64,000 nt of DNA from the NCBI GenBank assembly GCA_001771935.1, contig MERD01000094.1, positions 1-64,000 on the forward strand, written 5' to 3'. Below the pieces are notes generated by a model, which was not told the DNA's origin, did not search any database, and worked only from the letters and a program-made list of their open reading frames with translations. The stretch comes from Betaproteobacteria bacterium RIFCSPLOWO2_02_FULL_67_26. GTDB taxonomy: Bacteria > Pseudomonadota > Gammaproteobacteria > Burkholderiales > SG8-41. The stretch's first letter is position 1. Each line of letters opens with the position of its first letter. Positions 33,178-57,317 of the stretch are shown piece by piece. A program made the position numbers and the translations under genes.

Positions 33178-34194
33178 TCAGGTCGCGGCGGCCCCGGTTC
33201 CCGGCTTGGCAGCGAGCCGGGCCGCCAGCCTGAACGCATGCTCCAGGGCGCCGGCGTCGGCACGGCCCTGGCCGACGATATCGTAGGCCGTGCCGTGCGC
33301 GGGCGTGGTGAACACGGTCTTGAGCCCGGCGGTGACGGTGACGCCCTTGTTGAACCCGAGCAGCTTGGTCGCGATCTGGCCCTGGTCGTGGTACATCATC
33401 ACCACGCCGTCGAATTCGCCGCGCGTCGCCTTGATGAAGATCGCGTCGGAGGAAATGGGGCCGGTGCAGTTCACCCCGGCCGCCCGCATCCGCTCAACCG
33501 CGGGCCGGATGATGCGGATCTCCTCGTCGCCGAACAGGCCGTTCTCGCCGTTGTGCGGATTCAATGCGGCGACGCCGATGCGGGGTTGCGCGTGGCCGGC
33601 CGCGCGCAGGGTGCCGTCGGCGAGGCGTATCGCGCTCTCGATGCGCTCGGGCGTCACCAGGTTGACCGCCTCCCGCAGCGAGACGTGAGAGGTCACGCGG
33701 AACGTGCTGAACTCCTTGATCACGTTCATTTCGCCGAAAAAGCCGCTGTGATCGGTGAGCTTCGCGAACATCTGGTGCTCGTCGTTGAACTTCCAGCCGC
33801 CGCGGTGCAGGGCGCCCTTGTTGAGCGGCGCGAAGCAGATGCCGTCGAGCTTGCGCGCCAGCGCAAGGTCGATCATGGCCTTCAGCGTCTCTCCGGTCAG
33901 GCGGCCGGATTCGGCCGAGGGCTCGCCCTGCTCGAAGCGCGCCGGATCGATATTGCCCAGGTCGATCACCGGCAGCGTTTCGGACGGCCAGCGTATGTCG
34001 TCCACCGACGCAACCGTGCGGTAGCCGAGCGTGACCCCGGCGTCCCGGATGCCGAGGTCCAGCACGCGCTTGTCGCCGATCACGACGACGCGCGCGACCG
34101 CGTTGGCCGCGCCCGAGGCCAGCAGCCTCGCGCTGATCTCCGGGCCGATGCCGGTGACGTCGCCGAGCATCAGGCCGATGACGGGCTTTTTCAT
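33178..34194 (-). CDS. PdxA-family 4-phosphate dehydrogenase (probably catabolic PdxA2-like)
   Basis: 338 aa from ATG 34194 (MKKPVIGLMLGDVTGIGPEISARLL); the track start is upstream in repeats. PdxA motifs: GDVTGIGPE, APLNKGALH, EGEP-like region, YHDQGQIATKLLGF and FTTPAHGTAYDIVGQG. PdxA makes PLP precursor, but paralogues (PdxA2) oxidise D-threonate or D-erythronate 4-phosphate. The surrounding genes are catabolic and no pdxJ or ksgA is near, so a PdxA2 role is favoured. Confidence 0.88.
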   Translation of the reverse strand: MKKPVIGLMLGDVTGIGPEISARLLASGAANAVARVVVIGDKRVLDLGIRDAGVTLGYRTVASVDDIRWPSETLPVIDLGNIDPARFEQGEPSAESGRLTGETLKAMIDLALARKLDGICFAPLNKGALHRGGWKFNDEHQMFAKLTDHSGFFGEMNVIKEFSTFRVTSHVSLREAVNLVTPERIESAIRLADGTLRAAGHAQPRIGVAALNPHNGENGLFGDEEIRIIRPAVERMRAAGVNCTGPISSDAIFIKATRGEFDGVVMMYHDQGQIATKLLGFNKGVTVTAGLKTVFTTPAHGTAYDIVGQGRADAGALEHAFRLAARLAAKPGTGAAAT

Positions 34195-34229: not shown

Positions 34230-35651
34230 CTAGCGTCGCTTGCGCGTGGGGCCAATGGCGAGCAGGCGGGTCAATTCGCGCACGCTCTTCAGCTTTTCCA
34301 GGCTGAGCACCTTCTCCACCACCCTGTCGGCGCCGGCTTTCGGCAGCTTGCCCCACGCGGCACACTCGCGGAATTTGCCGGCGAGCTCATCATCGCTCAT
34401 CGGGTTGGCGGGGCTGCCCTTGCCGAAGTCGGCGCGGCCGCTGATCCGGCGGCCGTCCGCCAGCTCGATCTCGATGAGGGTCGTCATTTTCTCGTAGCCG
34501 GCCGCCTCGGCCTCCGGGTGCACGCCGAAGTCGACTTTCTCGATCATCCTGCGGACGTCAGGTCGATTCACCACCGCGTCCGTGAACTCGGCGAGCCCCG
34601 CCTTTCGCTCCAGCAGCAGGATCGCCATGCAAAACTCCATGCTGAACTTGGCCTGCAGCTCGTTCGCCGGGCGGTGGTGGATCAGCGCGTTCGGCATATG
34701 GCGGTTCGTTCCCACCTTGACCTTCACGACCTCGCCGGGGCGGATGTCGTGCCTGCGGATGAGGTCGAGCATCAGGCCCATGCCCGGATGGGTGAGCGAA
34801 CCCGATGGATGCGGCTTGATCGAGACACCGGGGAAAGCGAAGGTCCAGGGCTTGCCGAGCTTGCTTTCGATCGCCGCGCGATCGTAGCCGCCGCCGGCGG
34901 CCTGGAAGAACCCGCGGCCCGCCTCCAGCACGATGGGTGTCGCGGTCCAGCCGAGCCTGGCGAATTCCGCCGCGACAACGCCGCTTTCGGCCGAGCGACC
35001 GGGATGGAACGGCTTGGTCATGGTGCCGAAATTCTCGCGCAGCCCCGCGGACTGGCTGGCGCCGATGCCGAGGGCGCGCCGCGTCTGCTCGGTATTCAAC
35101 CGCAGCATCCTGGCCGCGCCGGCGGCGGCAGCGATCGCGCCGATCGTCGCCGTCGAATGGAACCCGTGGTCGTAATGGCGCGGGTTGATCGCTTCCGAGA
35201 TCTTGGTCTCGACCTCCACGGCGACCTGGTACGCGGTCAGCACGTCGAGCCCGGACCGGTTGCCGAGTTCGCCCAGCGCCAGCACCGGCGGGAGTGCCGG
35301 CGCGGTGGGATGGGTCAGCAGGCCATAGACGCGGTCCTTGGCCACCGCGAGCTGGGTGTCGTCGTAGTCGTCGGCGTGCATCGCGATGCCGTTGGCGAAC
35401 GCCGCGAAGCGCGCCGGCACCTTGAGATTCGTGCCGATGACGGTGCATCCCGCGTCGGTCGGCACGCCCAGAGTCCCGAGGTAGGCGCGAACGATGCGCC
35501 CGGACTCCGCGGCGTTGCCGGCAAGCGCGAGCCCGATGCCGTCGAGGATCGAGCGCTTGCCGAGATGCATGACATCCGCGGGAATGGACGATGCTCTGGT
35601 CGAGGTGATGAAGTCGGCGACGTAGGCGGTAAGTGGAGGAGTTTCAGCCAT
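34230..35651 (-). CDS. MmgE/PrpD family protein (1)
   Basis: 473 aa member of the 2-methylcitrate dehydratase / aconitate decarboxylase superfamily. ADDYDDTQ (the superfamily Asp-rich loop), HYDHGFHSTATIGA, GASQSAGLRENFGTMTKPFHPG and FPGVSIKPHPSG are diagnostic. Catalyses dehydration or decarboxylation of a tricarboxylate-like acid or a related isomerisation; substrate unknown. A candidate TATAAA -10 on the minus strand lies at 35677-35682. Second PrpD at 44386. Confidence 0.9.
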   Translation of the reverse strand: MAETPPLTAYVADFITSTRASSIPADVMHLGKRSILDGIGLALAGNAAESGRIVRAYLGTLGVPTDAGCTVIGTNLKVPARFAAFANGIAMHADDYDDTQLAVAKDRVYGLLTHPTAPALPPVLALGELGNRSGLDVLTAYQVAVEVETKISEAINPRHYDHGFHSTATIGAIAAAAGAARMLRLNTEQTRRALGIGASQSAGLRENFGTMTKPFHPGRSAESGVVAAEFARLGWTATPIVLEAGRGFFQAAGGGYDRAAIESKLGKPWTFAFPGVSIKPHPSGSLTHPGMGLMLDLIRRHDIRPGEVVKVKVGTNRHMPNALIHHRPANELQAKFSMEFCMAILLLERKAGLAEFTDAVVNRPDVRRMIEKVDFGVHPEAEAAGYEKMTTLIEIELADGRRISGRADFGKGSPANPMSDDELAGKFRECAAWGKLPKAGADRVVEKVLSLEKLKSVRELTRLLAIGPTRKRR

Positions 35652-35742: not shown

Positions 35743-36411
35743 TCAGGGATGTCGCGCGGCATATCTCGCAAGCCGGTCCCGGTCGCGAATGCTGATCTTG
35801 CGGTAGCGCACCGACAATACGCCGCGCTCGGTGAACCGCCCGAGGATGCGCGTCGCGGTCTGGCGCTGGACGCCCGTGATGTCGGCGATTTCCTGGTGCG
35901 TGAGGCCGATGGGGCGTGCGGCGCCGTCGGCCGGGTCGTGATAGCGCGCGGCGAGATCGACGAGGAATTTCGCGATGCGCGCCTCGGCGTTATCGGCCAT
36001 GAGGTAGACCAGCCGGTTGGCGAGCATGCCAAGCCGCGACGCGATGATCTGGACGAGCAGCTGGGACACCTCCGGATGCGCGACCAGGAACCCGCGGAAT
36101 CGCGCACTCGAAATCTCGGCCACCTCGCTCGGCTCGCAGGCCTCGACGCTCACCATGCGCCCCTTGTGGTGCGGCGCTTCCACCAGCCCGAATACCTCGC
36201 CGGGGAAACCGAACCACAGGATGACCTCGCGCCCGTCCGGGGTGAGCTTGTAGGTCTTGATGCGGCCGGCGAGCAGCAGGTACACGGCGTCGCCCGGGTC
36301 GCTGACGCGGTACACAAAAGCGCCCTTGCCCAGCCGCCGGCGCATCGCGCGCGCGAGCAGGGTGCGGCGGGTTTCCTCGTCCAGCCTGCCCAGAAAGTCG
36401 GTTGTGGCCAC
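35743..36411 (-). CDS. Crp/Fnr family transcriptional regulator
   Basis: 222 aa from GTG 36411 with AGGGAA upstream. Residues ~10-125 are a CNB domain with cassette FGLVEAPHHKGRMVSVEA (no PRxA, so probably not a cAMP receptor). Residues ~150-215 are the winged helix: LTHQEIADITGVQRQTATRILGRFTERGVL. No Fnr cysteines. First gene of the minus directon and divergent to the acyl-CoA carboxylase gene, so it is the natural regulator of both arms. Confidence 0.92.
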   Translation of the reverse strand: MATTDFLGRLDEETRRTLLARAMRRRLGKGAFVYRVSDPGDAVYLLLAGRIKTYKLTPDGREVILWFGFPGEVFGLVEAPHHKGRMVSVEACEPSEVAEISSARFRGFLVAHPEVSQLLVQIIASRLGMLANRLVYLMADNAEARIAKFLVDLAARYHDPADGAARPIGLTHQEIADITGVQRQTATRILGRFTERGVLSVRYRKISIRDRDRLARYAARHP

Positions 36412-36444
36412 GGGATCGTTCCCTGCGGCGCCGGCCGCCGGGAC

Positions 36445-36450
36445 ATTGTA
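36445..36450 (-). promoter_or_regulatory. Candidate -10 (TACAAT) of the Crp-type regulator gene
   Basis: Minus-strand GATTACAATG 34 nt before the GTG start, in the 153-nt divergent gap with the carboxyltransferase gene. The gap must contain promoters for both arms; no clear Crp-type palindrome was found by eye. Confidence 0.35.
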
Positions 36451-36564
36451 ATCGCTACGGGCTCAGGCGCTGGTGCCGCCAATTGTCACCCAGATGGCAG
36501 ATTTCCGGGGCCACCGCGGCGACACTCCTGCAACCGGCGGTCCCGCGCCCGGACGGAGGAAGAA

Positions 36565-38094
36565 TTGAAGTTCGAGGACAGGATCAGGGAGCACGCCGAA
36601 CGCGCCACGCGCGCGAAGGCGATGGGCGGGCCCGGGAAACTCGCCCGGCGCAGGCAGGACGGGGTGCTCAACGTGCGCGAGCGCATCGACCGGCTGCTCG
36701 ATCCCGGCACGTTCCGCGAGTCGGGGCTGTTCGGCGTGTCCTACATCCCGGAGATGCGCGAATCCACGCCGTGCGACGGCAAAGTGACGGGCTTCGGCAA
36801 GGTCGAGGGACGCCGGGTAGGTGTCGTCGGCTACGACTTCACGGTGAAGGGGTCGTCCTCGAGCTACACCAACAACCGCAAGATGGCGCACGTCAAGGAC
36901 ATCGGCGGCAAGCGCGGCTTCCCGGTGGTGTTCCTCGGCGAGTCGACCGGCGTGCGCATGCCCGACATCATGGGCGAGGGCATGGGCATGAACTTCGAGG
37001 GGCCGCGGTTCCTGCGCACCCGCGAGGCGCCGTGGGCCGCCGCGGTGCTGGGCAACGCCTTCGGTTCCTCGGCGTGGCACGCCTGCTGCTCGGATTTCTG
37101 CGTCATGCGCAAGGGCTCGGTGATGGCGGTGGCGAGCCCGGGCGTGGTCTCGATGTCGCTCGGGCGCGAGGTGACGGCGGAGGAGCTGGGCGGCTGGCAA
37201 GTGCTCGCGGAGCACTCGGGTTTCGCCGACGCGGCGGTCGACACCGACGAGCAGGCGATCGACACGATCAGGCGGTTCCTGTCGTATCTGCCGACCAACA
37301 GCCGCATGCCGCCGCCGGTGGCGGCGGTGCCCGAAGGGTCGGATGAGGCGGTGAAGGGCCTCCTCGAGCTCATTCCCGAATCGCCCGCGCAGGTCTACGA
37401 CGTGCGCAAGGTGATCAGGGCCTTCGTCGACTGCGACAGTTTCTTCGAGCTGAAGGATCGCTTCGGGCGCAGCATCACGACGGCGCTGGCGCGGCTGGAC
37501 GGGCGCACGATCGGCGTCATCGCGAACAACCCGCTCTACAAGGGCGGGTCGATGGATGCCGACGCGTGCAGCAAGGCAACCGACTTCATCGTGCTGTGCG
37601 ACTCCTACAACGTGCCCCTCGTGTTCCTGCACGACCAGCCGGGCTTCCTGATCGGGCCCGACGCGGAGAAGGCCGGCGTCATCGGCCGCGTGATCAACTG
37701 GATGAACGCCGTGCTGCAGGTGACGGTGCCGCGGATCAGCATCATCCTGCGCAAGAGCTACGGTCGCGGCTTCATCAACATGGGCGGGGCCGGCATTGCC
37801 GACGAGATCTCTGCGTGGTGGACCGCGGAAGTGAGCTTCATGAATCCCCGCACCGCGGTCAGGGTGGTGCATGGCGTGAAGGAAGAGGACGAGCCCGCGC
37901 GTTTTGCCGATCTCCTGAAAGAGATGGCGCGCAACGGCGGCGCCTACGACCTGGCCGCAGTCTACGGGGTCAAGGAGGTGCTCGATCCGCGCGAGACGCG
38001 CGAATACCTCAAGGAAGCGCTCGACGTGCACGCGTTGCGCCTGTCCGGCGGGGTGGGGCAGCACCGGCTCGCCAACTGGCCGACCAGTTTCTGA
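36565..38094 (+). CDS. Acyl-CoA carboxylase carboxyltransferase (beta) subunit
   Basis: 509 aa from TTG 36565 (LKFEDRIREHAERATRAKAMGG) with GGAGGAAG just upstream; the 814-aa track ORF overruns the divergent gap. Both crotonase-like halves of PccB/MccB are present: the first with DGKVTGFGKVEGRRVGV and GVRMPDIMGEG, the second with DCDSFFELKDRFG, LHDQPGFLIGPDAEKAG and GRGFINMGG. Transfers CO2 from biotin to an acyl-CoA. No biotin carboxylase or BCCP gene is nearby, so it depends on subunits elsewhere or has another role. Confidence 0.9.
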   Translation: MKFEDRIREHAERATRAKAMGGPGKLARRRQDGVLNVRERIDRLLDPGTFRESGLFGVSYIPEMRESTPCDGKVTGFGKVEGRRVGVVGYDFTVKGSSSSYTNNRKMAHVKDIGGKRGFPVVFLGESTGVRMPDIMGEGMGMNFEGPRFLRTREAPWAAAVLGNAFGSSAWHACCSDFCVMRKGSVMAVASPGVVSMSLGREVTAEELGGWQVLAEHSGFADAAVDTDEQAIDTIRRFLSYLPTNSRMPPPVAAVPEGSDEAVKGLLELIPESPAQVYDVRKVIRAFVDCDSFFELKDRFGRSITTALARLDGRTIGVIANNPLYKGGSMDADACSKATDFIVLCDSYNVPLVFLHDQPGFLIGPDAEKAGVIGRVINWMNAVLQVTVPRISIILRKSYGRGFINMGGAGIADEISAWWTAEVSFMNPRTAVRVVHGVKEEDEPARFADLLKEMARNGGAYDLAAVYGVKEVLDPRETREYLKEALDVHALRLSGGVGQHRLANWPTSF

Positions 38095-38108
38095 TTCACG
38101 AGGACTCA

Positions 38109-39281
38109 ATGAAAATCACCCGAGTAGAAGCCATTCCCGTCTGGTTCAAGCCCACCGACGAGTACCACGCGTTGTTCGGCTCCGGCAAGAAGAAGGGCAC
38201 GATGGTTCACGCGCGCGAGACGTGGTTCGCGAACATCGAATACAAGGAGAACGTATTCGTCAAGATCACCACCGGCGAGGGCATCGTCGGCTGGGGCGAG
38301 GCGTGCGCGCACCCGGTCACCAGCGAGACCCAGGCCGGGATCGTCGCGACGGTCGAGCTGTTCGGCCGCATCATCACCGGGAAGAGTCCTTTCCAGATCG
38401 GCGCGATCCACGCCGCGCTCGACAGACTCTTTCTCCAGGGCAACGCCGGCGCGAGGAGCGCCATCGACGTTGCGCTCTACGACATCATGGGCAAGGCCTC
38501 GGGGCAGCCGATCTACAACCTGCTCGGCGGCGCGCACCAGACCACGTTCGGCAAGCTCGCCACCATGCCGCGCGCGGAGCCGAAGCGCATGGCGGAACAC
38601 GCCCGCGCGCTCCTCAAGCGCGGTTACACGTGCTTCGAGCCCAAGATGACCGGCCACCTCGAATCGCTCGACGCGGACGCCGACCGGCTCGAGGCGATCC
38701 TCGGGGACGTGCCCGCGTCCTGCCTCGTGATCGCCGACCCCAACCAGATGTGGGGCACGGCGAAGGACACGATCGGGCTGCTCGCGCGGCGTTTTCCGGG
38801 CGCAGGCAACCTCGCGATCGAGCAGCCGGTCTGGTACTACGATCTCAATGGGCTTGCCGCAATCACGCAGGCGGTGCCGCAAAAGGTGGTCGCGGACGAG
38901 GCGATCCAGAACCTGTCGACCATGATCGAGATCGCGTCGCGCCGCATCGCCGACATGGTGAGCCTCAAGATCGGGAAATGCGGCGGCTTCTACAAGGCAG
39001 TGCAGATGATGCGCATCGCGGAAGCCGCGGGCTTGCCGGTGCGCATCGACTGGACGCAGGGGAGCCACCTCCTCGACACGGCGACGGGGCACCTGCACGC
39101 GGTCGTGCGCAACGTCGGCTGCGACCCGGGGATGGATTACCAGCTGCGCATCGAGGACAAACCGGTGAAGGAGGGCGGCGTGACGCAGGACCGGAACGGA
39201 TACTTCGTCATGCCGGATAAGCCCGGCCTCGGCCTTACGGTGGACGAGAAGTTGATCAGAAAGCTGTCGCAGCGCCGTTGA
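38109..39281 (+). CDS. Mandelate racemase/muconate lactonizing enzyme family protein (1)
   Basis: 390 aa enolase-superfamily enzyme, 14 nt after the carboxyltransferase gene. N-terminal capping domain 1-130, then barrel with metal ligands in VIADPNQMWG (Asp), LAIEQPVWYYD (Glu) and VVADEAIQ (Asp), and acid/base Lys candidates in FEPKMTGH and SLKIGKCGG. Abstracts the proton alpha to a carboxylate; product is most likely a sugar-acid dehydration or a racemised acid. Substrate not assignable. Confidence 0.88.
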   Translation: MKITRVEAIPVWFKPTDEYHALFGSGKKKGTMVHARETWFANIEYKENVFVKITTGEGIVGWGEACAHPVTSETQAGIVATVELFGRIITGKSPFQIGAIHAALDRLFLQGNAGARSAIDVALYDIMGKASGQPIYNLLGGAHQTTFGKLATMPRAEPKRMAEHARALLKRGYTCFEPKMTGHLESLDADADRLEAILGDVPASCLVIADPNQMWGTAKDTIGLLARRFPGAGNLAIEQPVWYYDLNGLAAITQAVPQKVVADEAIQNLSTMIEIASRRIADMVSLKIGKCGGFYKAVQMMRIAEAAGLPVRIDWTQGSHLLDTATGHLHAVVRNVGCDPGMDYQLRIEDKPVKEGGVTQDRNGYFVMPDKPGLGLTVDEKLIRKLSQRR

Positions 39282-39431
39282 CCCTGCTGCGGGCCCGATC
39301 ACGCCTCGGCGCGGCACGCGATCGTCGCCGTGGCGCGCCGGCCGCGCCCGGAAAAGCTGGTAGACTAGCCCGAGCCGCGCCGCCACGGTCCCGCGGCACG
39401 GCACGCATACGGATTTCCGCTTGGAGCATCG

Positions 39432-40724
39432 ATGGGCGCGACCATTGCAGAGAAGATTCTTGGCGCGCACGCCGGCGGCGCGCCGGCCAGGGCCGGCGAC
39501 ATCGTGGTCGCCGGCGTGGACTTTGCGATGCTGCACGATGCCCGCGCGAGCAACGCGTTGCGGCGCATCGAGCAACTGGGCGCGAAGAAACTTCCTTTTG
39601 CCTCGCGCACCGCGTTCGTGCTCGACCATTACTCGCCGCCGCCGCATGCGGAGGCGGCCAACATACACCGCGAGATGCGCGCATTTGCCGACGCGCACGG
39701 TACCGTGCTCTACGACGTCGGCGACGGCATCTGCCACCAGGTGCTGCCGGAAGGCGGCCACCTGACCTGCGGCGACCTGGTCGTCGGCACCGACACCCAT
39801 TCAACGACCTATGGGGCGTTCAACGCTTTTGGCACGGGAGTGGAAGGCACGGACCTGTCGGCGGTCATGATGACGGGCAAGCTGTGGTTCCGCGTGCCCG
39901 AAACCATCCGCGTCGACCTCAAGGGGCGGTTGCAGCCGGGCGTTTGGGCGAAGGACGTCACGCTGCACATGCTCGGCCGGCTCGGCGCGGAAGGGGCGAA
40001 CTACAAGGCCATTGAATACGCGGGACCCGCCGTGCGCGCGATGGACATGGACGACCGCATGACGCTCGCCAACCACGCCGCGGAGCTGGGCGCGAAGGCG
40101 GCGTTGCTGGAAGGGGACGAGAAGACGTTTGCGTGGCTCAAGGCGCGCGGCGCGCGGGACCCGCGGCCGGTCAAGGCCGACGCCGATGCGCGTTACGGTC
40201 AGCGTATCGAAGTTGACGCCGCGAAACTGCCGCCGCAGGTGGCGCGCAAGCACAAGATCGACGACGTCGTCGGCGTGCCGGAGGTGCGGGGCCTGCGCGT
40301 CAATTACGCGCTGATCGGCACCTGCACCAACGGGCGGCTCGATGACATCCGCCAGGCCGCCGCGATCCTGAAGGGCAAGCGGATCGCGAAGGGCGTGCGC
40401 ATGATCGTCACGCCCGCCTCGCGCAACGTGTACCTGCAGGCGGCGCGGGAAGGGTTGATCGAGATACTGACACAGGCGGGCGCCTCCTTCGAGGCGGCCG
40501 GATGCGGGACGTGCGTCAATATCACGGGCCACCTGATTACGGGGGACGGCGACGTCGTGATCACGAGCGCGAACCGCAATTTCAAGGGCCGCCTGGGCAA
40601 TCCCGATTCCGAAATCTACGTCGGCTCGTCGGCCACGGTGGCGGCGTCCGCGCTGGCCGGCAGCATTACCGACCCGCGCGAGGTCATGGGTGGCGACTGG
40701 CGGCCTGTATCCAAAGCAGCGTGA
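39432..40724 (+). CDS. Aconitase/LeuC-type hydro-lyase large subunit
   Basis: 430 aa, iron-sulfur hydratase large subunit (LeuC/HACN type). Cluster cysteines in LIGTCTNGR and GCGTCVN; THSTTYGAFNAFGTGVEG is the family His/Ser-rich signature. A LeuC, homoaconitase or 2,3-dimethylmalate dehydratase DmdA-type enzyme. The small subunit follows at 40759. The 150-nt gap before this gene has no ORF; TAGACT at 39363 could be a promoter element. Confidence 0.9.
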   Translation: MGATIAEKILGAHAGGAPARAGDIVVAGVDFAMLHDARASNALRRIEQLGAKKLPFASRTAFVLDHYSPPPHAEAANIHREMRAFADAHGTVLYDVGDGICHQVLPEGGHLTCGDLVVGTDTHSTTYGAFNAFGTGVEGTDLSAVMMTGKLWFRVPETIRVDLKGRLQPGVWAKDVTLHMLGRLGAEGANYKAIEYAGPAVRAMDMDDRMTLANHAAELGAKAALLEGDEKTFAWLKARGARDPRPVKADADARYGQRIEVDAAKLPPQVARKHKIDDVVGVPEVRGLRVNYALIGTCTNGRLDDIRQAAAILKGKRIAKGVRMIVTPASRNVYLQAAREGLIEILTQAGASFEAAGCGTCVNITGHLITGDGDVVITSANRNFKGRLGNPDSEIYVGSSATVAASALAGSITDPREVMGGDWRPVSKAA

Positions 40725-40760
40725 TGGGTGATGAATGATGGGTGATGGGAAGTTTCCCAT
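40721..40760. repeat. TGATGGG short-word repeat ending in a start-codon hairpin
   Basis: GTGATGGGTGATGAATGATGGGTGATGGGA then AGTTTCCCATG. The last ATGGGA pairs with TCCCAT (6 bp, 4-nt loop), whose AT is the start of the small-subunit gene (ATG 40759). Confidence 0.6.
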
Positions 40761-41277
40761 GTCTGCCTTGATCAAGGGCCGGGCGCACTTGCTCGGCGAC
40801 GACGTCAATACCGACCTGCACTGCTCGAGCAAGTACCACCCGGGCCGGGACAACGCCTACGTGGCGCAGCACGCCTTCGAGCAGCTTGCGCCGGGATTCG
40901 CGGCCCGCTTCGGGAAGCGCGGCGTCATCGTCGCGGGCAGGAACTTCGGGAACAATTCCTCGCGCGAGCAGGCGGTGCACATCCTGCGCATGATGGGCGT
41001 CGGCGGGATCGTCGCGGCTTCGTTTGGCCGGCAGTTTTACCGCAACTGCATCAATAATGGACTGACGGCGGTCGAATGCGATGTGGCGGGCGTTGCCGAT
41101 GGCGACGAAATTGAAATCGATCCCGCCGCGGGGCGTGTCGCGGTCCGCGCGCGCGGCATCGTGCGCGAGGTCCCGCCGCTGCCGGAGGCCGCGCTGGCGA
41201 TCGTCGCCGCCGGCGGGCTGATTCCGTTCCTGAAGGCCCATCCCGACTGGAAGATTCCGGTGACGACTGAGGGGTGA
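40759..41277 (+). CDS. Aconitase/LeuD-type hydro-lyase small subunit
   Basis: 172 aa swivel-domain partner of the preceding large subunit. ATG 40759 (MSALIKGRAHLLGDDVNTDLH); the track start lies in the repeat. GDDVNTD, the GRNFGNNSSREQA signature and the substrate-loop region are present. Together they would move a hydroxyl between adjacent carbons of an alkyl-malate. 7 nt before the next gene. Confidence 0.9.
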   Translation: MSALIKGRAHLLGDDVNTDLHCSSKYHPGRDNAYVAQHAFEQLAPGFAARFGKRGVIVAGRNFGNNSSREQAVHILRMMGVGGIVAASFGRQFYRNCINNGLTAVECDVAGVADGDEIEIDPAAGRVAVRARGIVREVPPLPEAALAIVAAGGLIPFLKAHPDWKIPVTTEG

Positions 41278-41284
41278 CGAAGTG

Positions 41285-42409
41285 ATGAAAATTGAGCGCG
41301 TGGAGATTTTCGGCGTCGCCGTGCCGCTGATCGGCGAGTACAAGAACGCCTATCTCTCCAAGACCGTCCAGAAAAGCGCTGTCGTGCGCATCACCGCGAG
41401 CGGCGGCGTGACGGGTCTCGGTAATATCGATCCCACGCCGGGCTATTCCAAGGAGCAGACGGTTGATCACCTCCGGGTGCTGGAAACCACGATCGCGCCG
41501 CGGCTGATCGGGATGGACCCGGTCAACGTGCACGCGGTGCTCGCAGTGATCGAGCCGGCCGTAAAGGGATACCTGGACTCCAAGGCGGCGATCGAGATGG
41601 CATGCGTGGATCTTGCGGCGCGTGTCGCCGGCATGCCCGTCCACGCGTACCTGGGCGGGGCGGTGAAGGAGCGCCTGCTGTTCAACGCCTGGATCGGCAT
41701 TCTGCCGCCGGACGAGGCGGCGAGGGAGACGCTCGACTGGAAGAAAAAGGGCTTTCGCTCCGCCAAGATCAAGGTCGGCGGCAACATCGAGGCCGACCGC
41801 GACCGCGTGAAGGCGGTGCGCGAGGCGGTGGGGCCCGACTTTCAGCTGCGCATCGATGCCAATGCCGGCTACGACGCGGACACCTCGATCAAGCTCGCGG
41901 GAATGGTCGCGCCGTTCAAGCTGCAGCTCTTCGAGCAGCCGGTGCCGGACCACGACATCGCCGGCATGGCGCGAGTGCGGAAGGCAGCGAACGCGGTGGG
42001 CTTGCCCGTCATGGCGGACGAGTCGGTGCTGGACCACGCGAGCCTGATCCGGATCATCAAGGCGGACGCGGCCGACATCGTCAAGGTCAAGGTGATGAAA
42101 CAGGGCGGCTTCATCAACACGCGACGGATGATCGCGACCGCCGAGGCGGCGGGCATCCGCTGCGTCGTCGGGCACGGTTTCGGGCTCGGCGTCAACACCA
42201 TGGCCGAGATCATGCTCGCGGCGACCTCGAGCAACGTGATCGATGGCCTGGAATGCGTGGGTCCGCTCAAGACCGCCGACGACGTCGTGACCCGCAAGCT
42301 CGACCTCTCCAGCGGCAGCCTGCCGCTGCCGCCGGGCCCGGGCCTCGGCGTCGCGCTCGACGACGCCAAGCTCGAGAAATACCGGCTGGACGTGAAAGCC
42401 GCTGCCTAG
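41285..42409 (+). CDS. Mandelate racemase/muconate lactonizing enzyme family protein (2)
   Basis: 374 aa, muconate-cycloisomerase-like subgroup: KxK in SAKIKVGG on the second strand, metal ligands RIDANAGYD, FEQPVPD and MADESV, and Lys in KVKVMKQGG on the sixth strand. The K...K arrangement supports 1,1-proton transfer, cycloisomerisation or epimerisation. Only distantly like the enzyme at 38109, so not a recent duplicate. ATG 41285 preferred to GTG 41282. Confidence 0.9.
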   Translation: MKIERVEIFGVAVPLIGEYKNAYLSKTVQKSAVVRITASGGVTGLGNIDPTPGYSKEQTVDHLRVLETTIAPRLIGMDPVNVHAVLAVIEPAVKGYLDSKAAIEMACVDLAARVAGMPVHAYLGGAVKERLLFNAWIGILPPDEAARETLDWKKKGFRSAKIKVGGNIEADRDRVKAVREAVGPDFQLRIDANAGYDADTSIKLAGMVAPFKLQLFEQPVPDHDIAGMARVRKAANAVGLPVMADESVLDHASLIRIIKADAADIVKVKVMKQGGFINTRRMIATAEAAGIRCVVGHGFGLGVNTMAEIMLAATSSNVIDGLECVGPLKTADDVVTRKLDLSSGSLPLPPGPGLGVALDDAKLEKYRLDVKAAA

Positions 42410-42439
42410 GATCGGCGGCGGCGATCGCGAGGATTGGAC

Positions 42440-43384
42440 ATGATGTGCCGTGTCTTCCTCGCCGCCTTCATTCTGGTGCTGGCGAGCTCGCCGGCCGGCG
42501 CACAGACCTATCCGGCAAGGCCGATCACGATACTCTGCTGGTCGGCGGCGGGATCTCCCGGGGACCTGTATGCCCGCATGATGGCGAAACTCCTCGCCGC
42601 GGAGCTCGGTCAGAACGTGGGGGTCGACAACCGCGCCGGCGGCTCCGGCATCGTCATGGTGAACACGCTGCTGCGGGCGGCGCCGGACGGCTACACGATC
42701 GCGGCCGGCACCAATGCGCTCGCCGCGCTGTTCGGCGGCACGGGCGTGGTGTTCAAGCCCGAGGACCTGCAAATGGTCGCGCGCTCGCAGGTGGACCCGT
42801 ACGGCCTGATCGTCCACGCGTCCACGCCGTTCCGCACTATCGACGATTTCATCGGTTACGCGCGCCGCAAGCCCGGGGCCGTCAACGTCGGCGGCCCCTT
42901 CGCCATGAGCGGCCACCGGGTGGCGTGGGAGCTGTTTTCGGACATCGCGAGATTCAAGACCACGTGGGTACCGTACCAGGGCGGCGGACCGGCGCTGACG
43001 GCGGTCGCCGGCGGCCACGTGGACGCAGCCGCGACCCATCCCGGCAGCTTTAGGCCGTTCCTCGCCGCCGGCAAGGTGCGCGTGCTGGCGGTGTCGTCCG
43101 ACCGCAGGATCGAGGATTTTCCAGACGTTCCGACCTACCGGGAGCGCGGCTGGAACCTGGTGCGCTATCAGTGGCGGGGCATCATGGCCAAGGCGGGTAC
43201 GCCGAGGCCGGTCGTGGAGCGCCTGGCCGCGGCCGTGCAGAAAGCACAGCAGGCCGCTGAATGGAAGAGCTACCTGCGGCAGGTGACGCAGCTCGATGGA
43301 TTCCTGGGGCCGGATGCGTTCCGCATCCAGCTCGTGCAGGACATGCAGGAGATGGAGGCGGTCAGGAACAAGCTCGGCCTTTAG
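42440..43384 (+). CDS. Bug/TctC family periplasmic solute-binding protein (2)
   Basis: 314 aa from ATG 42440 with GAGGA upstream. Signal peptide cleaved near SSPAGAQTYPARPITI. The typical G-F-x-PGG is replaced by LCWSAAGSPGDLYARM; VGVDNRAGGSGIVMV, DGYTIAAG and PYQGGG remain. The changed first loop touches the ligand carboxylate in this family, so the substrate may be unusual. Sits inside the enzyme cluster, so its ligand is probably the pathway substrate. Confidence 0.9.
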   Translation: MMCRVFLAAFILVLASSPAGAQTYPARPITILCWSAAGSPGDLYARMMAKLLAAELGQNVGVDNRAGGSGIVMVNTLLRAAPDGYTIAAGTNALAALFGGTGVVFKPEDLQMVARSQVDPYGLIVHASTPFRTIDDFIGYARRKPGAVNVGGPFAMSGHRVAWELFSDIARFKTTWVPYQGGGPALTAVAGGHVDAAATHPGSFRPFLAAGKVRVLAVSSDRRIEDFPDVPTYRERGWNLVRYQWRGIMAKAGTPRPVVERLAAAVQKAQQAAEWKSYLRQVTQLDGFLGPDAFRIQLVQDMQEMEAVRNKLGL

Positions 43385-43401
43385 CCGAGCCTGGCTAAAG
43401 G
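43378..43401. repeat. Hairpin over the Bug(2) stop codon
   Basis: CCTTTAGCC, loop GAGCCT, GGCTAAAGG: perfect 9-bp arms including the TAG stop. No U-tract. May slow ribosomes or protect the mRNA 3' end. Confidence 0.5.
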
Positions 43402-43403
43402 CG

Positions 43404-43433
43404 GTGATGAGTGATGGGTGATGAGTGATGGGT
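43404..43433. repeat. TGATGGG/TGATGAG short-word repeat
   Basis: GTGATGAGTGATGGGTGATGAGTGATGGGT, about four 7-8 base copies, running into the start of the lyase gene (GTG 43425 or ATG 43428). Same family as 14002 and 40721. Confidence 0.65.
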
Positions 43434-44312
43434 AGAGAATCCGCCCGCAAGCGCCTGCGCGCGAGACTGGCTACGGGCCCGGTGATCGTTGCGCCGGGGA
43501 TCTATGACGCCTACGGCGCGCGGCTGGTCGAGCAGGCGGGTTTCGAAGCGGTGTACATGACCGGTAACGGCGTCTCGGCGAGCCTGCTGGGCCGCCCCGA
43601 CGTCGGTCTGGTGGACCTGACGCTGATCACGAGCCATGCCCATCGCGTGGCCGCGGCCGTAGATATTCCTCTCGTCTGCGATGCGGATACCGGCTATGGC
43701 AACGCGGTCAATGTGCGGCGCACGGTGGAGGAGTTTGAGTCGGCGGGGGTCGCGGCGATTCATATCGAGGACCAGGCCTCCCCGAAGCGGTGCGGCCAGC
43801 TTCCCGGCGCGCGTCCGGTGATCGAGCTGGCCGAGGCGGTGGGCAAGATCGAGGCGGCGGTGGCGGCACGGCGCGATCCCGACTTCGTCATCATCGCGCG
43901 CACCGATTCGGCCGAAGCGCATGGGCTGGACGAGGCGATCCGGCGTGGACGGGCATTCCGCGCGGCGGGCGCCGACGTGATCTTCGTCGAGATGAAAAGC
44001 GGACCGGGTATCCTGGACGAGCTCAAGCGCGTGACGGCGGAGGTGGACGCGCCGTGTCTCGTCAACATGGGAGCGGGCGGGAAGCTCGACGAGCTCGACG
44101 CCGGGGGGATCGGGCGCCTCGGCCTGCGCATCGCGATCTATCCCGGGCTCGAGCGGGCCGCGGCGGGCCATGCCATTCGCGAAGCGCTCGCTGCCCTCAG
44201 GAAGGACGGCAACACGCGGGCGATGCGTGGCCGCATGCTCGGGCTCAAGGAGTACAACGAAGCGCTCAAGCTCGATGACATCGAGGAGTGGGAGAAGAAA
44301 TACTTGAAGTGA
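43428..44312 (+). CDS. PEP mutase/isocitrate lyase superfamily lyase (methylisocitrate or dimethylmalate lyase-like)
   Basis: 294 aa. Mg-binding DADTGYGN, catalytic-loop KRCGQLPG, IHIEDQ and IIARTDS are all in place. KRCG places it with C-C lyases (PrpB, 2,3-dimethylmalate lyase, oxaloacetase group), not PEP mutase. Would cleave a 2-hydroxy diacid or triacid to pyruvate (or glyoxylate) plus an acid. Its location with an aconitase-type dehydratase pair parallels the dimethylmalate dehydratase/lyase pair of nicotinate-fermenting Eubacterium. Confidence 0.88.
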   Translation: MGRESARKRLRARLATGPVIVAPGIYDAYGARLVEQAGFEAVYMTGNGVSASLLGRPDVGLVDLTLITSHAHRVAAAVDIPLVCDADTGYGNAVNVRRTVEEFESAGVAAIHIEDQASPKRCGQLPGARPVIELAEAVGKIEAAVAARRDPDFVIIARTDSAEAHGLDEAIRRGRAFRAAGADVIFVEMKSGPGILDELKRVTAEVDAPCLVNMGAGGKLDELDAGGIGRLGLRIAIYPGLERAAAGHAIREALAALRKDGNTRAMRGRMLGLKEYNEALKLDDIEEWEKKYLK

Positions 44313-44377
44313 TTCGTTTCTCGTTTTTCGTTTCTCGATCCAGCCCGAGACGACGAACAACGAGAAACGAGGAACGG
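44311..44377. repeat. CGTTTCTCG inverted element, copy 2
   Basis: GATTCGTTTCTCGTTTTTCGTTTCTCGATCCAG, short spacer, AACAACGAGAAACGAGGAACGG. Left and right arms are complementary. Shares CTCGTTTTTCGTTnCTCGATCCAG with 26391-26415 despite an unrelated spacer. Fills the gap between the lyase and PrpD(2) genes. Confidence 0.65.
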
Positions 44378-44385
44378 AGTTTGCA

Positions 44386-45795
44386 ATGGAAGTCACACGC
44401 ACATTGGCTAGATTCATCGTCGGGCATCGCTATGCGGATGTCCCGGAAAAAGTCCGCCACGAGGCGGCGCGCGCGTTCCTGAACTGGGTCGGGTGCGCGG
44501 TGGGCGCCTCGCGCCATGAAACGGTGGGGCGCGCGCTCGCGGCGCTCTCCGAGTTTTCGGGGCCGCGCGAGGCGACGGTGCTGGGGCGCGGCGACAAGCT
44601 CGACATCATGCTCGCCGCGCTCATGAACGGCACCACCTCCCACACCTTCGATTACGACGACACGCACCTGAAAACGGTCATCCATCCCAGCGGCCCGGTC
44701 GCCTCGGCCATCCTCGCGCTGGCCGAGCGCAAGCCGCTCAAGGGGGAGGATTTCCTGCACGCATTCATCCTGGGCGTGGAAACCGAATGCCGCATCGGCA
44801 ACGCGGTCTATCCGTCCCACTACGACATCGGCTGGCACATCACCGCCACCGCCGGCGTGTTCGGCGCCGCGGCGGCGGCCGGTCGGCTGCTCGGCCTCAA
44901 CGAGCAGCAGATGGTGTGGGCGCTCGGGATCGCCGCCACGCAGTCCTCGGGACTGCGCGAGATGTTCGGCTCCATGGCGAAACCCATGCACCCGGGCAAC
45001 GCGGCGCGCAATGGCCTGCTCGCCGCGCTGCTCGCCTCGAAGAATTTCACCAGCGCCGAACAGGGCATCGAGGGCCGGCGCGGCTTCGCCAACGTGCTGG
45101 CGACGGAGCGCAACACCGCGGCGATCACGGAGCGGCTCGGGCAGACCTGGGAGATCGCCCTCAATACCTACAAGCCGTACGCCTGCGGCATCGTCGAGCA
45201 CCCGGCAATCGACGGCTGCATCCAGCTCCGCAACGAGCACAAGCTGAAGGCGGAGGATATCGAGAGCATAGCGCTCCGGGTGCACCCGTTGGTGCTGGAG
45301 CTGACCGGCAGGAGGACGCCGCAGACCGGACTCGAAGGAAAGTTCAGCGTCTACCACTCGTGCGCTGTGGCCATCATCCACGGGGCGGCGGGGGAGGCGC
45401 AGTACAGCGATGACGCGGTGCGCGACCCGAGGGTCGTCGCGCTGCGGGACAGAGTCACTGCGGCGGTGGAGCAGGGCGTGCACGAGGACCAGGTGCACGT
45501 CGCGATCCAGCTGAAGAGCGGCAAGGTGCTCGAGCGCTTCGTCGAGCACGCCGCGGGCAGCCTGGACCGCCCGATGAGCGATTCCGACCTCGAGGCCAAG
45601 TTCCGCGGCCTGGCGGACGGCATCCTTTCGACAACCGAGGCTGACAGGCTGATCCGCCTGTGCTGGGACGTAGGCAGGCTCAAGGATGTGGGCGAAGTCG
45701 CGCGCGCCTCCGTCCCCGCCGCCGTAATGAAGCGTGACGAGGTGCGGCGTGACAAGGAAAAACGTGACTCGAATTCGAAAGGAAATCAGTGTTGA
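44386..45795 (+). CDS. MmgE/PrpD family protein (2)
   Basis: 469 aa. HTFDYDDTHLK, HYDIGWHITATAGVFGAAAAA, ATQSSGLREMFGSMAKPMHPGNAARNG and NTYKPYACGIVEHPAIDGC are PrpD superfamily motifs. Related to but clearly diverged from the copy at 34230. The C-terminus (MKRDEVRRDKEKRDSNSKGNQC) is a charged low-complexity tail that looks repeat-derived. Overlaps the next gene by 7 nt. Confidence 0.9.
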   Translation: MEVTRTLARFIVGHRYADVPEKVRHEAARAFLNWVGCAVGASRHETVGRALAALSEFSGPREATVLGRGDKLDIMLAALMNGTTSHTFDYDDTHLKTVIHPSGPVASAILALAERKPLKGEDFLHAFILGVETECRIGNAVYPSHYDIGWHITATAGVFGAAAAAGRLLGLNEQQMVWALGIAATQSSGLREMFGSMAKPMHPGNAARNGLLAALLASKNFTSAEQGIEGRRGFANVLATERNTAAITERLGQTWEIALNTYKPYACGIVEHPAIDGCIQLRNEHKLKAEDIESIALRVHPLVLELTGRRTPQTGLEGKFSVYHSCAVAIIHGAAGEAQYSDDAVRDPRVVALRDRVTAAVEQGVHEDQVHVAIQLKSGKVLERFVEHAAGSLDRPMSDSDLEAKFRGLADGILSTTEADRLIRLCWDVGRLKDVGEVARASVPAAVMKRDEVRRDKEKRDSNSKGNQC

Positions 45796-46844
45796 AGATC
45801 GGTGTGTTGATGGGCGACGACATCGGGCTCGAAGTCGTGCCTGAATGCGTCAAGGTGCTGAAAGCGGCGGCGGCGGCGAGCGGGCTGCAAATCGAGTGCC
45901 AGGAGCTGCCGATCGGCAAGCGCGGGCACGAGCTGCACGGGAACACGTTGCCGCCGGTGACGGCGAAGGCGCTCGAGGCCTGCGACGGCTGGGTCATGGG
46001 CCCGATCGGGCACAGCGCCTACCCGCGCAACGATCCCACGTGGGTCATGCCGCCGGTGCGGAAGCGCTTCCAGCTCTTCGCGAGCATCAAGCCGGTCAAG
46101 TCCTATCCCAACCTCAAGTCGGTGCACAAGGACGTGGACATCGTGTTCCTGCGCGAGGTGAACGAAGGCATGATGTCGAGCAGCGTCGTGCTTGCCGGCA
46201 GCGGGGAATTCCGCCCGAACGACGATATTTCCATCGGCATGCGCGTGATCACGCGCAAGGGCGCGAACCGCGTGGCCAGGGAGGCGTTCGAGATCGCGCG
46301 CACGCGTCCGCGCCGGAAAGTGAACGCCGTGCACAAGGAGCCGGTGTATCGCATCTGCTGCGGCATGTTCGCGGAAGAGTGCCGCAAGGTGGCGAAGGAA
46401 TTCCCGGACGTGAAGTTCGAGGAGACCATGGTGGACACGATGTGCATGAAGCTGGTGATGAACCCGCAGCAGTACGACGTGGTGGTCACGTCCAACCAGT
46501 TCGGCGACATGATCACCGACGAGGGGGCGGGGCTGGTCGGCGGACTGGGGCTCGCCCCGGGCATCTGCGCCGGCGAAAAGCAGGCGATGGCGCAGGCGAC
46601 CCACGGCTCGGCGCCGGACATCGCCGGAAAGAGCATCGCCAACCCCTACGCCATGATCATGTCCGGGAAGATGCTGATCGAGTGGCTGGGCCGCAAGCGC
46701 AACGAGCCGAAAGCCACGCAGGCGGCGGCGCTCATCGACGGCGCGATGGACAAGGTGATCGCCGAGGCGAAGCACCTCACCCCGGATCTCGGCGGAAGGG
46801 GGTCGACGAAGGAAATGGGCGACGCCGTCGCAGCCGCGGTTTGA
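45789..46844 (+). CDS. Isocitrate/isopropylmalate dehydrogenase family protein (1)
   Basis: 351 aa beta-decarboxylating dehydrogenase. GTG 45789, aligned with the ATG of the paralogue. Family residues: NDPTWVMPP, the Arg triad region, NQFGDMITDEGAGLVGGLG (metal Asp), THGSAPDIAGK (NAD pocket). The specificity segment reads REVNEGMMSSSVV rather than RELTGG (LeuB) or RENTE (IDH), and is closest to tartrate/homoisocitrate types. Likely oxidises a hydroxy-diacid made by the aconitase-type pair. Tandem with a near twin. Confidence 0.88.
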   Translation: MLKIGVLMGDDIGLEVVPECVKVLKAAAAASGLQIECQELPIGKRGHELHGNTLPPVTAKALEACDGWVMGPIGHSAYPRNDPTWVMPPVRKRFQLFASIKPVKSYPNLKSVHKDVDIVFLREVNEGMMSSSVVLAGSGEFRPNDDISIGMRVITRKGANRVAREAFEIARTRPRRKVNAVHKEPVYRICCGMFAEECRKVAKEFPDVKFEETMVDTMCMKLVMNPQQYDVVVTSNQFGDMITDEGAGLVGGLGLAPGICAGEKQAMAQATHGSAPDIAGKSIANPYAMIMSGKMLIEWLGRKRNEPKATQAAALIDGAMDKVIAEAKHLTPDLGGRGSTKEMGDAVAAAV

Positions 46845-46860
46845 TGATGGCGTGGATGGC

Positions 46861-47916
46861 ATGCTGAAGATCGGAATCCTGCCGGGAGATGACATCGGCC
46901 TGGAAGTCGTGCCGGAGGCCGTCAAGGTGATGAAGGCGGCGGCGGCGAGGACCGCGCTGGAGGTCCGGTGGCAGGAGCTGCCCATCGGCAGGCGCGGGCA
47001 CGAGCTGCACGGGCACACCATGCCGCAGTCCACGGTCGCGGCGCTGGAGCAATCGGATGGCTTCCTCTGCGGGCCGATCGGGCACGCCGCCTATCCGCGC
47101 AACGACCCGACCTGGATCATGCCGCCGCTGAGGAAGCGCCTGGACCTCTACGCCAGCATCAAGCCGGTAAAGTCCTACCCGAACATCCGGTCGGTGCACA
47201 AGAACGTGGATATCGTGTTCCTGCGCGAGGTGACGGAGGGCATGCAGTCCTCCGACACCGTCGTCGCCGGAGCCGGCGAGTTCCGACCCAACGACGAGAT
47301 CACCATCGCCCAGCGCGTCATCACGCGCGCGGGCTCGAGGCGCGTCGCGCGCGAAGCATTCGAGATCGCGCGCACGCGCCCGCGCGGGAAAGTCACCTCG
47401 GTGCACAAGGAGCCGGTATACCGGCTCGCCTGCGGCATGTTCGCCGAGGAGTGCCGCAAGCTCGCTCGGGAATACCCGGACGTGAAGCTCGATGAAGTGC
47501 TGGTGGACGGCTTCGCGATGAAGCTCGTCATGAACCCGCAGCAGTTCGACGTGGTGGTCACTACCAACCAGTTCGGCGACATCCTGACCGACGAAGGGGC
47601 GGGCGTCGTGGGCGGACTCGGGCTCGCCCCGGGCCTGTGCGTGGGGGACCGCCTCGCGATGTCCCAGGCGACCCACGGCTCGGCGCCGGACATCGCCGGA
47701 AGGAACATCGCCAATCCCTACGCGCTGATCATGTCGGGCCAGATGCTGTTCGCCTGGCTCGGCAGGAAGCGCGATGAACCGAAAGCAACGCAGGCGGCGA
47801 AGTTGATCGACGCGGCGGTGGACAAGGTCATCGCGGAGGCCAGGCACCTGACCGCCGATCTCGGCGGCCAAGCCAGCACGACGGAGATGGGCGACGCCAT
47901 AGCCGCGGCGATCTGA
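46861..47916 (+). CDS. Isocitrate/isopropylmalate dehydrogenase family protein (2)
   Basis: 351 aa, same length as and highly similar to the preceding gene across its length (shared LPIGKRGHELHG-type, SAYPRNDPTW-type and TNQFGD blocks). Specificity segment REVTEGMQSSDTV. ATG 46861, 16 nt after the first copy. Conserved catalytic Lys in VHKEPVYR. The two may form a heteromer, as in eukaryotic IDH, or act on stereoisomers; both look intact. Confidence 0.88.
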   Translation: MLKIGILPGDDIGLEVVPEAVKVMKAAAARTALEVRWQELPIGRRGHELHGHTMPQSTVAALEQSDGFLCGPIGHAAYPRNDPTWIMPPLRKRLDLYASIKPVKSYPNIRSVHKNVDIVFLREVTEGMQSSDTVVAGAGEFRPNDEITIAQRVITRAGSRRVAREAFEIARTRPRGKVTSVHKEPVYRLACGMFAEECRKLAREYPDVKLDEVLVDGFAMKLVMNPQQFDVVVTTNQFGDILTDEGAGVVGGLGLAPGLCVGDRLAMSQATHGSAPDIAGRNIANPYALIMSGQMLFAWLGRKRDEPKATQAAKLIDAAVDKVIAEARHLTADLGGQASTTEMGDAIAAAI

Positions 47917-53345: not shown

Positions 53346-53372
53346 TCGATCCTCTGGTCCGGGCCGACCGGA

Positions 53373-53378
53373 TATAAT
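53373..53378 (+). promoter_or_regulatory. Candidate -10 (TATAAT) of Bug(3)
   Basis: GGATATAATCCCC, 77 nt before ATG 53455 in the 109-nt divergent gap. No clear -35. Confidence 0.45.
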
Positions 53379-53454
53379 CCCCGGCTCGACAGCAATGCGC
53401 CAAATGTGGTGGAATTGTAGCGCGGAACACAAACGATAACGAAGGAGGGAAGCC

Positions 53455-56453: not shown

Positions 56454-56515
56454 AGGGGCGTGATGGGAGATGTGTGACGGGTGACAGGCGCGTCACTTCG
56501 TCAGTTCGTCCCCCG

Positions 56516-57307: not shown

Positions 57308-57317
57308 GAACCACGCT

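Follow-up and report, generated by a model that had tools for sequence, protein, structure and literature searches.

Gene content of the locus

We analysed a 64,000-nucleotide stretch of DNA (hereafter the window; contig MERD01000094.1, positions 1 to 64,000) from Betaproteobacteria bacterium RIFCSPLOWO2_02_FULL_67_26, in which a run of plus-strand genes putatively encodes the breakdown of an organic acid. The original prediction, made from this DNA alone, had described that run (36412-47916) as a catabolic cluster matching no known pathway: a carboxyltransferase, two enolase-superfamily enzymes, a LeuCD-type pair, a Bug receptor, a C-C lyase, a PrpD and two LeuB/isocitrate dehydrogenase (IDH)-type enzymes, with a Crp-type regulator and another PrpD divergent from them. 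Open reading frames, codon-position statistics and Pfam/NCBIfam scans confirmed all of the claimed families, their strands and their place, with every plus-strand family at 36.4-47.9 kb (Table 1). The cluster also extends past this interval into a minus-strand wing at 30.1-36.4 kb, which further encodes a LigB-like protein and a second Bug receptor as well as PdxA and a candidate SMP30-type lactonase. The predicted families are thus real, but the list left out this wing, including PdxA, which belongs to the conserved core, and it included a carboxyltransferase and an enolase-superfamily enzyme (MR1) that lie outside that core. Comparison with relatives indicates that the cluster is a conserved, lineage-restricted and putatively catabolic module.

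Spacing on the plus strand is operon-like, with gaps of mostly 5-75 bp and a 7 bp overlap between PrpD2 and IDH1; the single larger gap (~150 bp) lies upstream of LeuC. The start of the carboxyltransferase gene is uncertain, at either 36565 or an ATG at 36622. Promoter and terminator scans of the locus gave matches at chance level only, and an Rfam scan matched zero families there.

Table 1. Genes of the cluster in window coordinates, with strand and the evidence for each assignment.
Feature	Coordinates	Strand	Evidence
SMP30/gluconolactonase-family hydrolase, candidate lactonase	30058..30984	-	Pfam SGL E=7e-35
Bug/TctC periplasmic carboxylate receptor	30989..31996	-	Open reading frame; tblastn matches to Bug receptors adjoining PdxA in relatives
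LigB-like (class III extradiol dioxygenase fold), accessory	31990..33087	-	Pfam LigB E=5.6e-10, partial match
PdxA-like metal-dependent beta-hydroxy-acid dehydrogenase, core	33178..34194	-	Pfam PdxA 291 bits
PrpD1, MmgE/PrpD-family dehydratase or epimerase, core	34230..35651	-	Pfam MmgE_PrpD N + C domains
Crp/FNR-family regulator, probable local regulator	35743..36411	-	Pfam HTH_Crp_2 + cNMP_binding
Acyl-CoA carboxyltransferase (PccB/MmdA type), accessory	36565..38094	+	Pfam Carboxyl_trans 317 bits
MR1, enolase-superfamily enzyme, accessory	38109..39281	+	Pfam MR_MLE N + C
LeuC-like large subunit, 4Fe-4S hydro-lyase/isomerase, core	39432..40724	+	Pfam Aconitase 311 bits
LeuD-like small subunit, core	40735..41277	+	TIGR02087 LeuD/DmdB family 133 bits
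MR2, muconate-lactonizing-subgroup enolase-superfamily enzyme (cycloisomerase or epimerase type), core	41282..42409	+	Pfam MR_MLE
Bug/TctC periplasmic carboxylate receptor (Bug2)	42434..43384	+	Pfam TctC E=2.4e-49
PEP-mutase/isocitrate lyase (ICL)-superfamily C-C lyase, KRCGQ, core	43425..44312	+	Pfam PEP_mutase E=5.7e-48
PrpD2, second MmgE/PrpD-family enzyme, recurrent	44386..45795	+	Pfam
IDH1, isocitrate/isopropylmalate dehydrogenase family	45789..46844	+	Pfam Iso_dh
IDH2, tandem paralogue of IDH1	46852..47916	+	Pfam Iso_dh

Conservation and co-occurrence in relatives

We compared 39 related loci (labelled L0xx; L048 and L058 are two fragments of one metagenome-assembled genome) and profiled the genes across 399 genomes of the order, representing 159 genera, and 274 genomes sampled across the class. 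Orthologues of the window LeuC (65-87% identity) occur in 20 of the 399 genomes and in none of the others among the 274. They were found in about 28 named genome_contigs records, all of them metagenome-assembled Betaproteobacteria/Burkholderiales, beyond which the next relatives fall to 48%; in a plasmid collection, LeuC relatives were only <60% identical. Orthologous LeuCD is present in ~38 betaproteobacterial loci, and record titles place the hosts among lake, groundwater and permafrost lineages. LeuD follows LeuC wherever the sequence extends far enough. Of the 28 loci whose sequence runs on for 5 kb or more downstream from LeuC, 27 carry the lyase (the exception is L064), which upholds the claimed pairing of a LeuCD-like enzyme with a lyase. 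The original prediction named a break in linkage between the lyase, the LeuCD-like pair and the dehydrogenases as grounds for refutation, and this partly applies: IDH genes stand beside LeuCD and the lyase in 8 loci only.

The other genes recur at different frequencies among the 39 loci: PdxA in 24, PrpD1 in 19, MR2 in 18, Bug2 in 11, IDH and PrpD2 in 8 each and SMP30 in 7. Across the 399 genomes, PrpD1 was found in 21 (18 in common with the 20 that carry LeuC) and PdxA in 19 (17 in common), while the 31 genomes with MR2 cover all 20 of the LeuC-positive ones. The overlap of these profiles gives hypergeometric p < 1e-23, although the genomes are related to each other; at the genus level PrpD1 is present in 5/6 LeuC genera (p=4.5e-8, 159 genera).

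Gene order is less constant than gene content. In family f18 (L066, L068, L073), order and strands are rearranged: L066 and L068 hold MR2, PrpD1, LeuCD, the lyase and PdxA within ~11 kb, and L073, which ends just past LeuD, shows MR2, PrpD1 and LeuCD. In family f13, LeuCD stands on a different contig from PrpD1 and MR2, whose contigs in several cases exceed 100 kb, yet the genomes still carry both genes. A chance association is ruled out because the gene set is conserved in relatives. We also rejected an explanation by unrelated neighbouring operons, since order and orientation vary by lineage while the gene set persists and since the genes co-occur without linkage in family f13. Judged from these sequence comparisons, the cluster is a real conserved functional unit.

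One related locus (L036) comes from a lake metagenome bin labelled Bordetella parapertussis. Several of its genes are 88-94% identical to uncultured betaproteobacterial loci, and the species label is probably wrong.

Active-site signatures of the core enzymes

All core enzymes stay below the NCBIfam equivalog cut-offs. The earlier view of the cluster as unassigned is supported. The enzymes form clades with active-site signatures of their own, which we read as residue-level signs of new specificity.

LeuC keeps the three cluster cysteines (motifs GTCTNGR and GCGTC). It scores above the hacA_fam and IPMI_arch subfamily cut-offs (TIGR01343, 481 versus 385.7) and above no equivalog cut-off, and it falls in a separate clade of the LeuC tree (support 95/92). 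LeuD likewise reaches subfamily level only (TIGR02087, 133 versus a cut-off of 108.95). At the place of GPYLRT in homoaconitase and of GRYNLT or ARYLVY in IPMI-type enzymes, every LeuD orthologue carries CS.KY..GK; the last position is Arg, not Lys, in the window LeuD and a few relatives. The loop reads KYHPG in the window and KY..GK in relatives, and the homoaconitase YLRT loop is absent. All LeuD orthologues also have NSSREQ where homoaconitase and IPMI-type enzymes have GSSRE.

The catalytic Cys of the lyase is invariant, within KRCGQ in the window and KRCGH, KKCGH, KQCAQ or KRCAQ in orthologues, in keeping with the K(K/R)CG(H) motif of the superfamily, and the residues neighbouring this Cys are retained. 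Its nearest structures in the PDB, with tied scores, are methylisocitrate lyase (3eoo) and 2,3-dimethylmalate lyase (3fa3). With the PrpB equivalog model (cut-off 354.4), the lyase reaches only 241 bits; a separate PrpB in the same genome (contig C71) scores 424.9 bits, above that cut-off. The genome also holds a second lyase-LeuC-LeuD locus on contig C55 (L090:2822-5500), upstream of which are genes for an acyl-CoA dehydrogenase and SDR. The C55 LeuC clusters with Lachnospiraceae LeuC linked to PrpF and PrpD, apart from the window clade.

PdxA retains the metal histidines and scores below the equivalog cut-off (TIGR00557, 255.8 versus 290.35). All of its orthologues replace GHTE.L with DEH(Q/A/R)MF and IRTS.DHGTA with (F/Y)(T/A)TPAHGTA, the original motifs being what we take to be the phosphate anchors of PdxA; our literature search on the PdxA active site did not find a structure paper. 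The nearest solved structures are 4jqp and 6e85, with TphB (4aty) more distant.

The tandem IDH-family pair also departs from its family. IDH1 has REVNEGMM and HKEPVY, and IDH2 has REVTEGMQ and HKEPVY; the canonical Tyr and Asn are absent from both. All 10 copies in this clade (the pair and eight single-copy orthologues) share RE(V/T)(T/N)EGM(Q/M) and HKEPV(Y/F), in place of the Tyr of RE.(T/N).(G/D).Y and the K-(A/S)-N of normal IDH and isopropylmalate dehydrogenases. Orthologues of IDH2 are 73-79% identical in 8 loci, and relatives carry one copy only. Among the sequences compared, the remoter family members (41-44%, 36% and 32%) keep the Tyr, in EGFY, EGEY, GDIY or EDFY, with HKAN, TKSN, DKAN or DKEN as the second motif. 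A third clade, at 59-62% (L037, L058, L084), also lacks the Tyr (NNEGFPP). The plain LeuB-like oxidative decarboxylation claimed for these enzymes is not to be assumed, because both copies are without the catalytic Tyr.

PrpD1 and PrpD2 lie far below the PrpD equivalog cut-offs: PrpD1 scores 48.2 against 950 (NF042438) and does not match TIGR02330, and PrpD2 scores 48.9 against 950 and 35.9 against 458, respectively. Both enzymes and their orthologues nevertheless keep the catalytic set of the MmgE/PrpD superfamily, His/(Asp or Glu)/His/Tyr/His/Lys/Lys (PMC12290011), in the form His/Asp/His/Tyr/His/Lys/Lys, as mapped by motif order and spacing. Characterised MmgE/PrpD enzymes all use free C4 1,4-dicarboxylates, differing in their C2/C3 substituents, via an enolate (PMC12290011). 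The nearest solved structure to PrpD1 and PrpD2 is IDS-epimerase. PrpD2 orthologues are 69-84% identical at 8 related loci and 65% in family f13. MR2 and its orthologues have the complete KxK/D/E/D/K active site of the muconate-lactonizing (MLE) subgroup, and the PDB structures closest to MR2 are those of MLE and dipeptide epimerases.

Proposed pathway

We lean towards the view that the locus directs the uptake and catabolism of a free C4 dicarboxylate substituted at C2/C3 (a substituted succinate or malate), with paralogues following the logic of the methylcitrate cycle. The observed basis is the gene content, its conservation and co-occurrence, the retained catalytic residues of PrpD, the lyase, LeuC and MR2, and the altered signatures of LeuD, PdxA and IDH; the order and direction of the steps, the fold-level roles and everything concerning the substituent are what we infer. 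LeuCD, ICL-type lyases and IDH-type enzymes use malate-type backbones, and a scheme of substituted C4-dicarboxylate breakdown suggests itself because MmgE/PrpD-, LeuCD-, ICL- and IDH-type enzymes share a substrate backbone. The branched hydroxy-acid named earlier as the substrate agrees with the substituted-malate class, which fits the substrates of all four families. Overall, the original prediction is partly supported: right in class and incomplete in gene content, for a substrate that was inferred.

In the proposed pathway, the substrate would possibly arrive as a lactone or ester. Capture would fall to the Bug receptors, and any lactone or ester forms would be opened by the SMP30-type and alpha/beta hydrolases. 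PrpD1 and PrpD2 may then epimerise or dehydrate the 1,4-dicarboxylate via an enolate, and the LeuCD-type 4Fe-4S enzyme would hydrate a maleate-type intermediate to an isomeric secondary-alcohol malate, from which the PrpB/ICL-type lyase would release a 2-oxo acid together with a carboxylic acid. In this form, the PrpD, LeuCD-type and lyase steps would copy the last three of the methylcitrate cycle (PrpD, aconitase, PrpB) with another substituent. PdxA and the divergent IDH-type enzymes may oxidise an alternative beta-hydroxy acid in a parallel oxidative branch, while MR2 may handle an isomer or lactone.

Several points weigh against this pathway. The dehydrogenases and PrpD2 are missing from some related loci, and MR2 and PdxA fit no obvious place in a purely methylcitrate-like scheme. 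PrpD1 could be an epimerase, in which case a dehydration-rehydration chain is not forced. The IDH copies, lacking the canonical Tyr, may not decarboxylate, or may not act in the usual way.

Carboxyl-rich small acids make up much of the dissolved organic carbon of lakes and groundwater, and to our knowledge the genes for their breakdown are not known. We tentatively raise the possibility that the cluster encodes an undescribed pathway confined to uncultured freshwater, groundwater and soil Burkholderiales, in which a specific substituted succinate or malate from natural organic matter is degraded by methylcitrate-cycle paralogues, together with a Tyr-less, possibly non-decarboxylating IDH-family enzyme and a PdxA acting on a non-phosphorylated acid. 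If the IDH pair does act without the Tyr, or PdxA on a free acid, this would be new chemistry for two well-studied families. The cluster provides a conserved and well-delimited set of genes, with residue-level signatures in LeuD, PdxA and the IDH pair, that is open to expression and to tests on a small panel of substituted malates.

Alternative explanations and known systems

Alternatively, the locus may be a late branch of aromatic or humic degradation, in which the LigB-like protein, the MLE-type MR2, SMP30 and alpha/beta lactonases and a PdxA/TphB-like enzyme yield a carboxylated lactone or tricarboxylate that then passes to LeuCD, the lyase and PrpD. We regard this as unlikely. Both its sequence and its active site do put MR2 in the MLE subgroup, SMP30 is strongly conserved, low-GC freshwater loci included, the lake, groundwater and permafrost origins of the hosts are compatible, and PdxA lacks the phosphate-anchor motifs in a family that includes terephthalate dihydrodiol dehydrogenase. 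However, the LigB orthologue is found in 0 related loci, no ring-hydroxylating oxygenase is linked, and the MLE subgroup also holds epimerases. Among known systems, PdxA2/D-threonate-4-phosphate dehydrogenase and TphB share the fold and metal-binding His of PdxA but differ from every window-type orthologue in the two replaced motifs; the annotated genes of the locus include no DUF1537 kinase.

It seems improbable that the locus is simply a diverged version of a known route for branched dicarboxylates (itaconate, methylsuccinate or citramalate) or of the methylcitrate cycle. One cluster here does bring together MmgE/PrpD, an aconitase-type hydro-lyase and a catalytic-Cys ICL-superfamily lyase, the superfamilies that make up the methylcitrate cycle. 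In contrast to that cycle, the cluster uses a two-subunit LeuCD-type enzyme rather than AcnB/AcnD, adds PdxA, MR2, SMP30 and the IDH pair, and departs from known LeuD and PdxA signature motifs, while PrpD1 and PrpD2 miss the PrpD cut-offs by a wide margin. Members of the citrate synthase family are on contigs C69, C62, C16 and C39, with none on the window contig (C94). We rejected a genuine methylcitrate cycle, since the lyase is not a PrpB equivalog, in a genome that has one elsewhere, and citrate synthase is unlinked. The combination of an MmgE/PrpD enzyme, a lyase and a CaiB-type CoA-transferase, the last linked to the cluster in several relatives, also recalls the itaconate/methylsuccinate cluster of Pseudomonas and Cupriavidus (ict, ich, ccl, mcd, mmgE). 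There, a free dicarboxylate with a branched C4 backbone, for which uptake is dedicated, is the substrate of the MmgE/PrpD enzyme (PMC12290011, PMC9875883). That route runs via CoA esters (Ich, Ccl), whereas for the window we assign cleavage to an ICL-type lyase that works without CoA, and Ich hydratase, Ccl lyase and Ict CoA-transferase are all absent from the genes of 30.1-47.9 kb.

The comparison with nicotinate fermentation in Eubacterium barkeri, drawn by the original prediction, is chemically fair as an analogy: in both systems, a two-subunit LeuCD-type hydratase (there DmdAB) is paired with an ICL-superfamily lyase, and the window subunits belong at subfamily level to the LeuD/DmdB (small) and HacA/IPMI (large) families. 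The cluster differs in having its own LeuD loop signature and extra enzymes, the PrpF-type 3-methylitaconate isomerase (Mii) is absent from the window contig (PrpF family members are on C31 and C87 only), and the window LeuC lies outside the clade of the Firmicute LeuC that is linked to a lyase and PrpF. A Roseburia/Lachnospiraceae cluster (L056/L057) that holds a lyase, PrpD, PrpF and LeuCD together looks closer to the E. barkeri arrangement. A 2,3-dimethylmalate pathway, in which the LeuCD-like pair hydrates dimethylmaleate, the lyase forms propionate and pyruvate and the PccB-like carboxyltransferase passes propionyl-CoA onward, is very improbable here: LeuD exceeds the LeuD/DmdB cut-off, 3fa3 is among the nearest lyase structures and a PccB-type enzyme is present, but methylisocitrate lyase scores equally, the PrpF/Mii-type genes are on other contigs, the Firmicute LeuC falls with that of C55, the carboxyltransferase is missing from related LeuCD loci, and PdxA, MR2, SMP30 and the IDH pair are left without a role. 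Literature searches on the gene combination and on dimethylmalate genes returned nothing decisive.

Plain leucine- or lysine-type biosynthesis genes are ruled out by equivalog cut-offs and motifs. The superfamilies and two-subunit layout are those of LeuCD, LeuB, homoaconitase and homoisocitrate dehydrogenase, but the LeuD loop and the IDH catalytic motif differ, and uptake receptors and a lyase share the cluster. Scores fall short for leucine biosynthesis (TIGR00169, 204.7/223.5 versus 353.2; TIGR00170, 218 versus 560; TIGR00171, 36.9 versus 116) and for homoaconitase and homoisocitrate dehydrogenase (HacA_Meth, 382.8 versus 550; HacB_Meth, 109 versus 230; AksF2, 278/294 versus 540).

Accessory genes and neighbouring operons

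Rarity in relatives rules out the carboxyltransferase, the LigB-like protein and MR1 as core steps of this locus type. Neither the carboxyltransferase nor a LigB-like orthologue occurs in any of the 39 related LeuCD loci, and MR1 orthologues are confined to L029 and L038. The nearest PDB structure to the carboxyltransferase is a propionyl-CoA carboxylase beta subunit (1vrg), and no biotin carboxylase accompanies it at the locus; the LigB-like protein scores 45.1 bits against a cut-off of 290 (NF009901). Elsewhere, the slot of the carboxyltransferase and MR1 is filled by HpcH/HpaI aldolase and BKACE genes, and LysR regulators replace Crp/FNR in L031 and L066. Bug2 orthologues are 62-71% identical at 11 related loci.

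SMP30 copies are 75-87% identical at 7 related loci, including those of the low-GC Burkholderiales L044, L045 and L050 (GC 0.43-0.44 in L044 and L050). These three loci carry a variant of the module, composed of SMP30 (77%), an enolase-superfamily enzyme, an Ldh_2 dehydrogenase, Bug, LeuCD and the lyase, and preceded by CaiB, enoyl-CoA hydratase and 3-hydroxyacyl-CoA dehydrogenase genes.

MR2 has a recurrent neighbour of its own: a TauD-type dioxygenase adjoins it in family f18 (L066), in family f13 (L077, L078) and in L080 and L081. This pairing suggests an oxygenase step feeding the pathway; the best TauD relative in the source genome (55%) is on another contig. In family f13 (L077, L078), MR2 also adjoins a carboxyltransferase homologue (50-51%) and an NDP-forming acyl-CoA synthetase.

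Directly downstream of IDH2 and in the same direction lie a polysaccharide deacetylase (DUF3473) and a methyltransferase (47932-49456), which are not beside IDH in relatives and are probably unrelated to the cluster. Further along, a CaiB-type CoA-transferase (52128-53498) and a divergent Bug receptor (Bug3) form a pair spanning 52128-54420. This CaiB is 68-72% identical to copies beside the cluster in L040, L041, L061, L062 and L064, and a Bug3 relative (54-60%) accompanies it in L040, L041 and L061, with a partial recurrence in L062. The minus-strand genes at 54433-58496, putatively encoding a SucC/SucD-like CoA ligase pair, an enoyl-CoA hydratase and a TauD-family dioxygenase, look like a further, separate acid catabolic operon.

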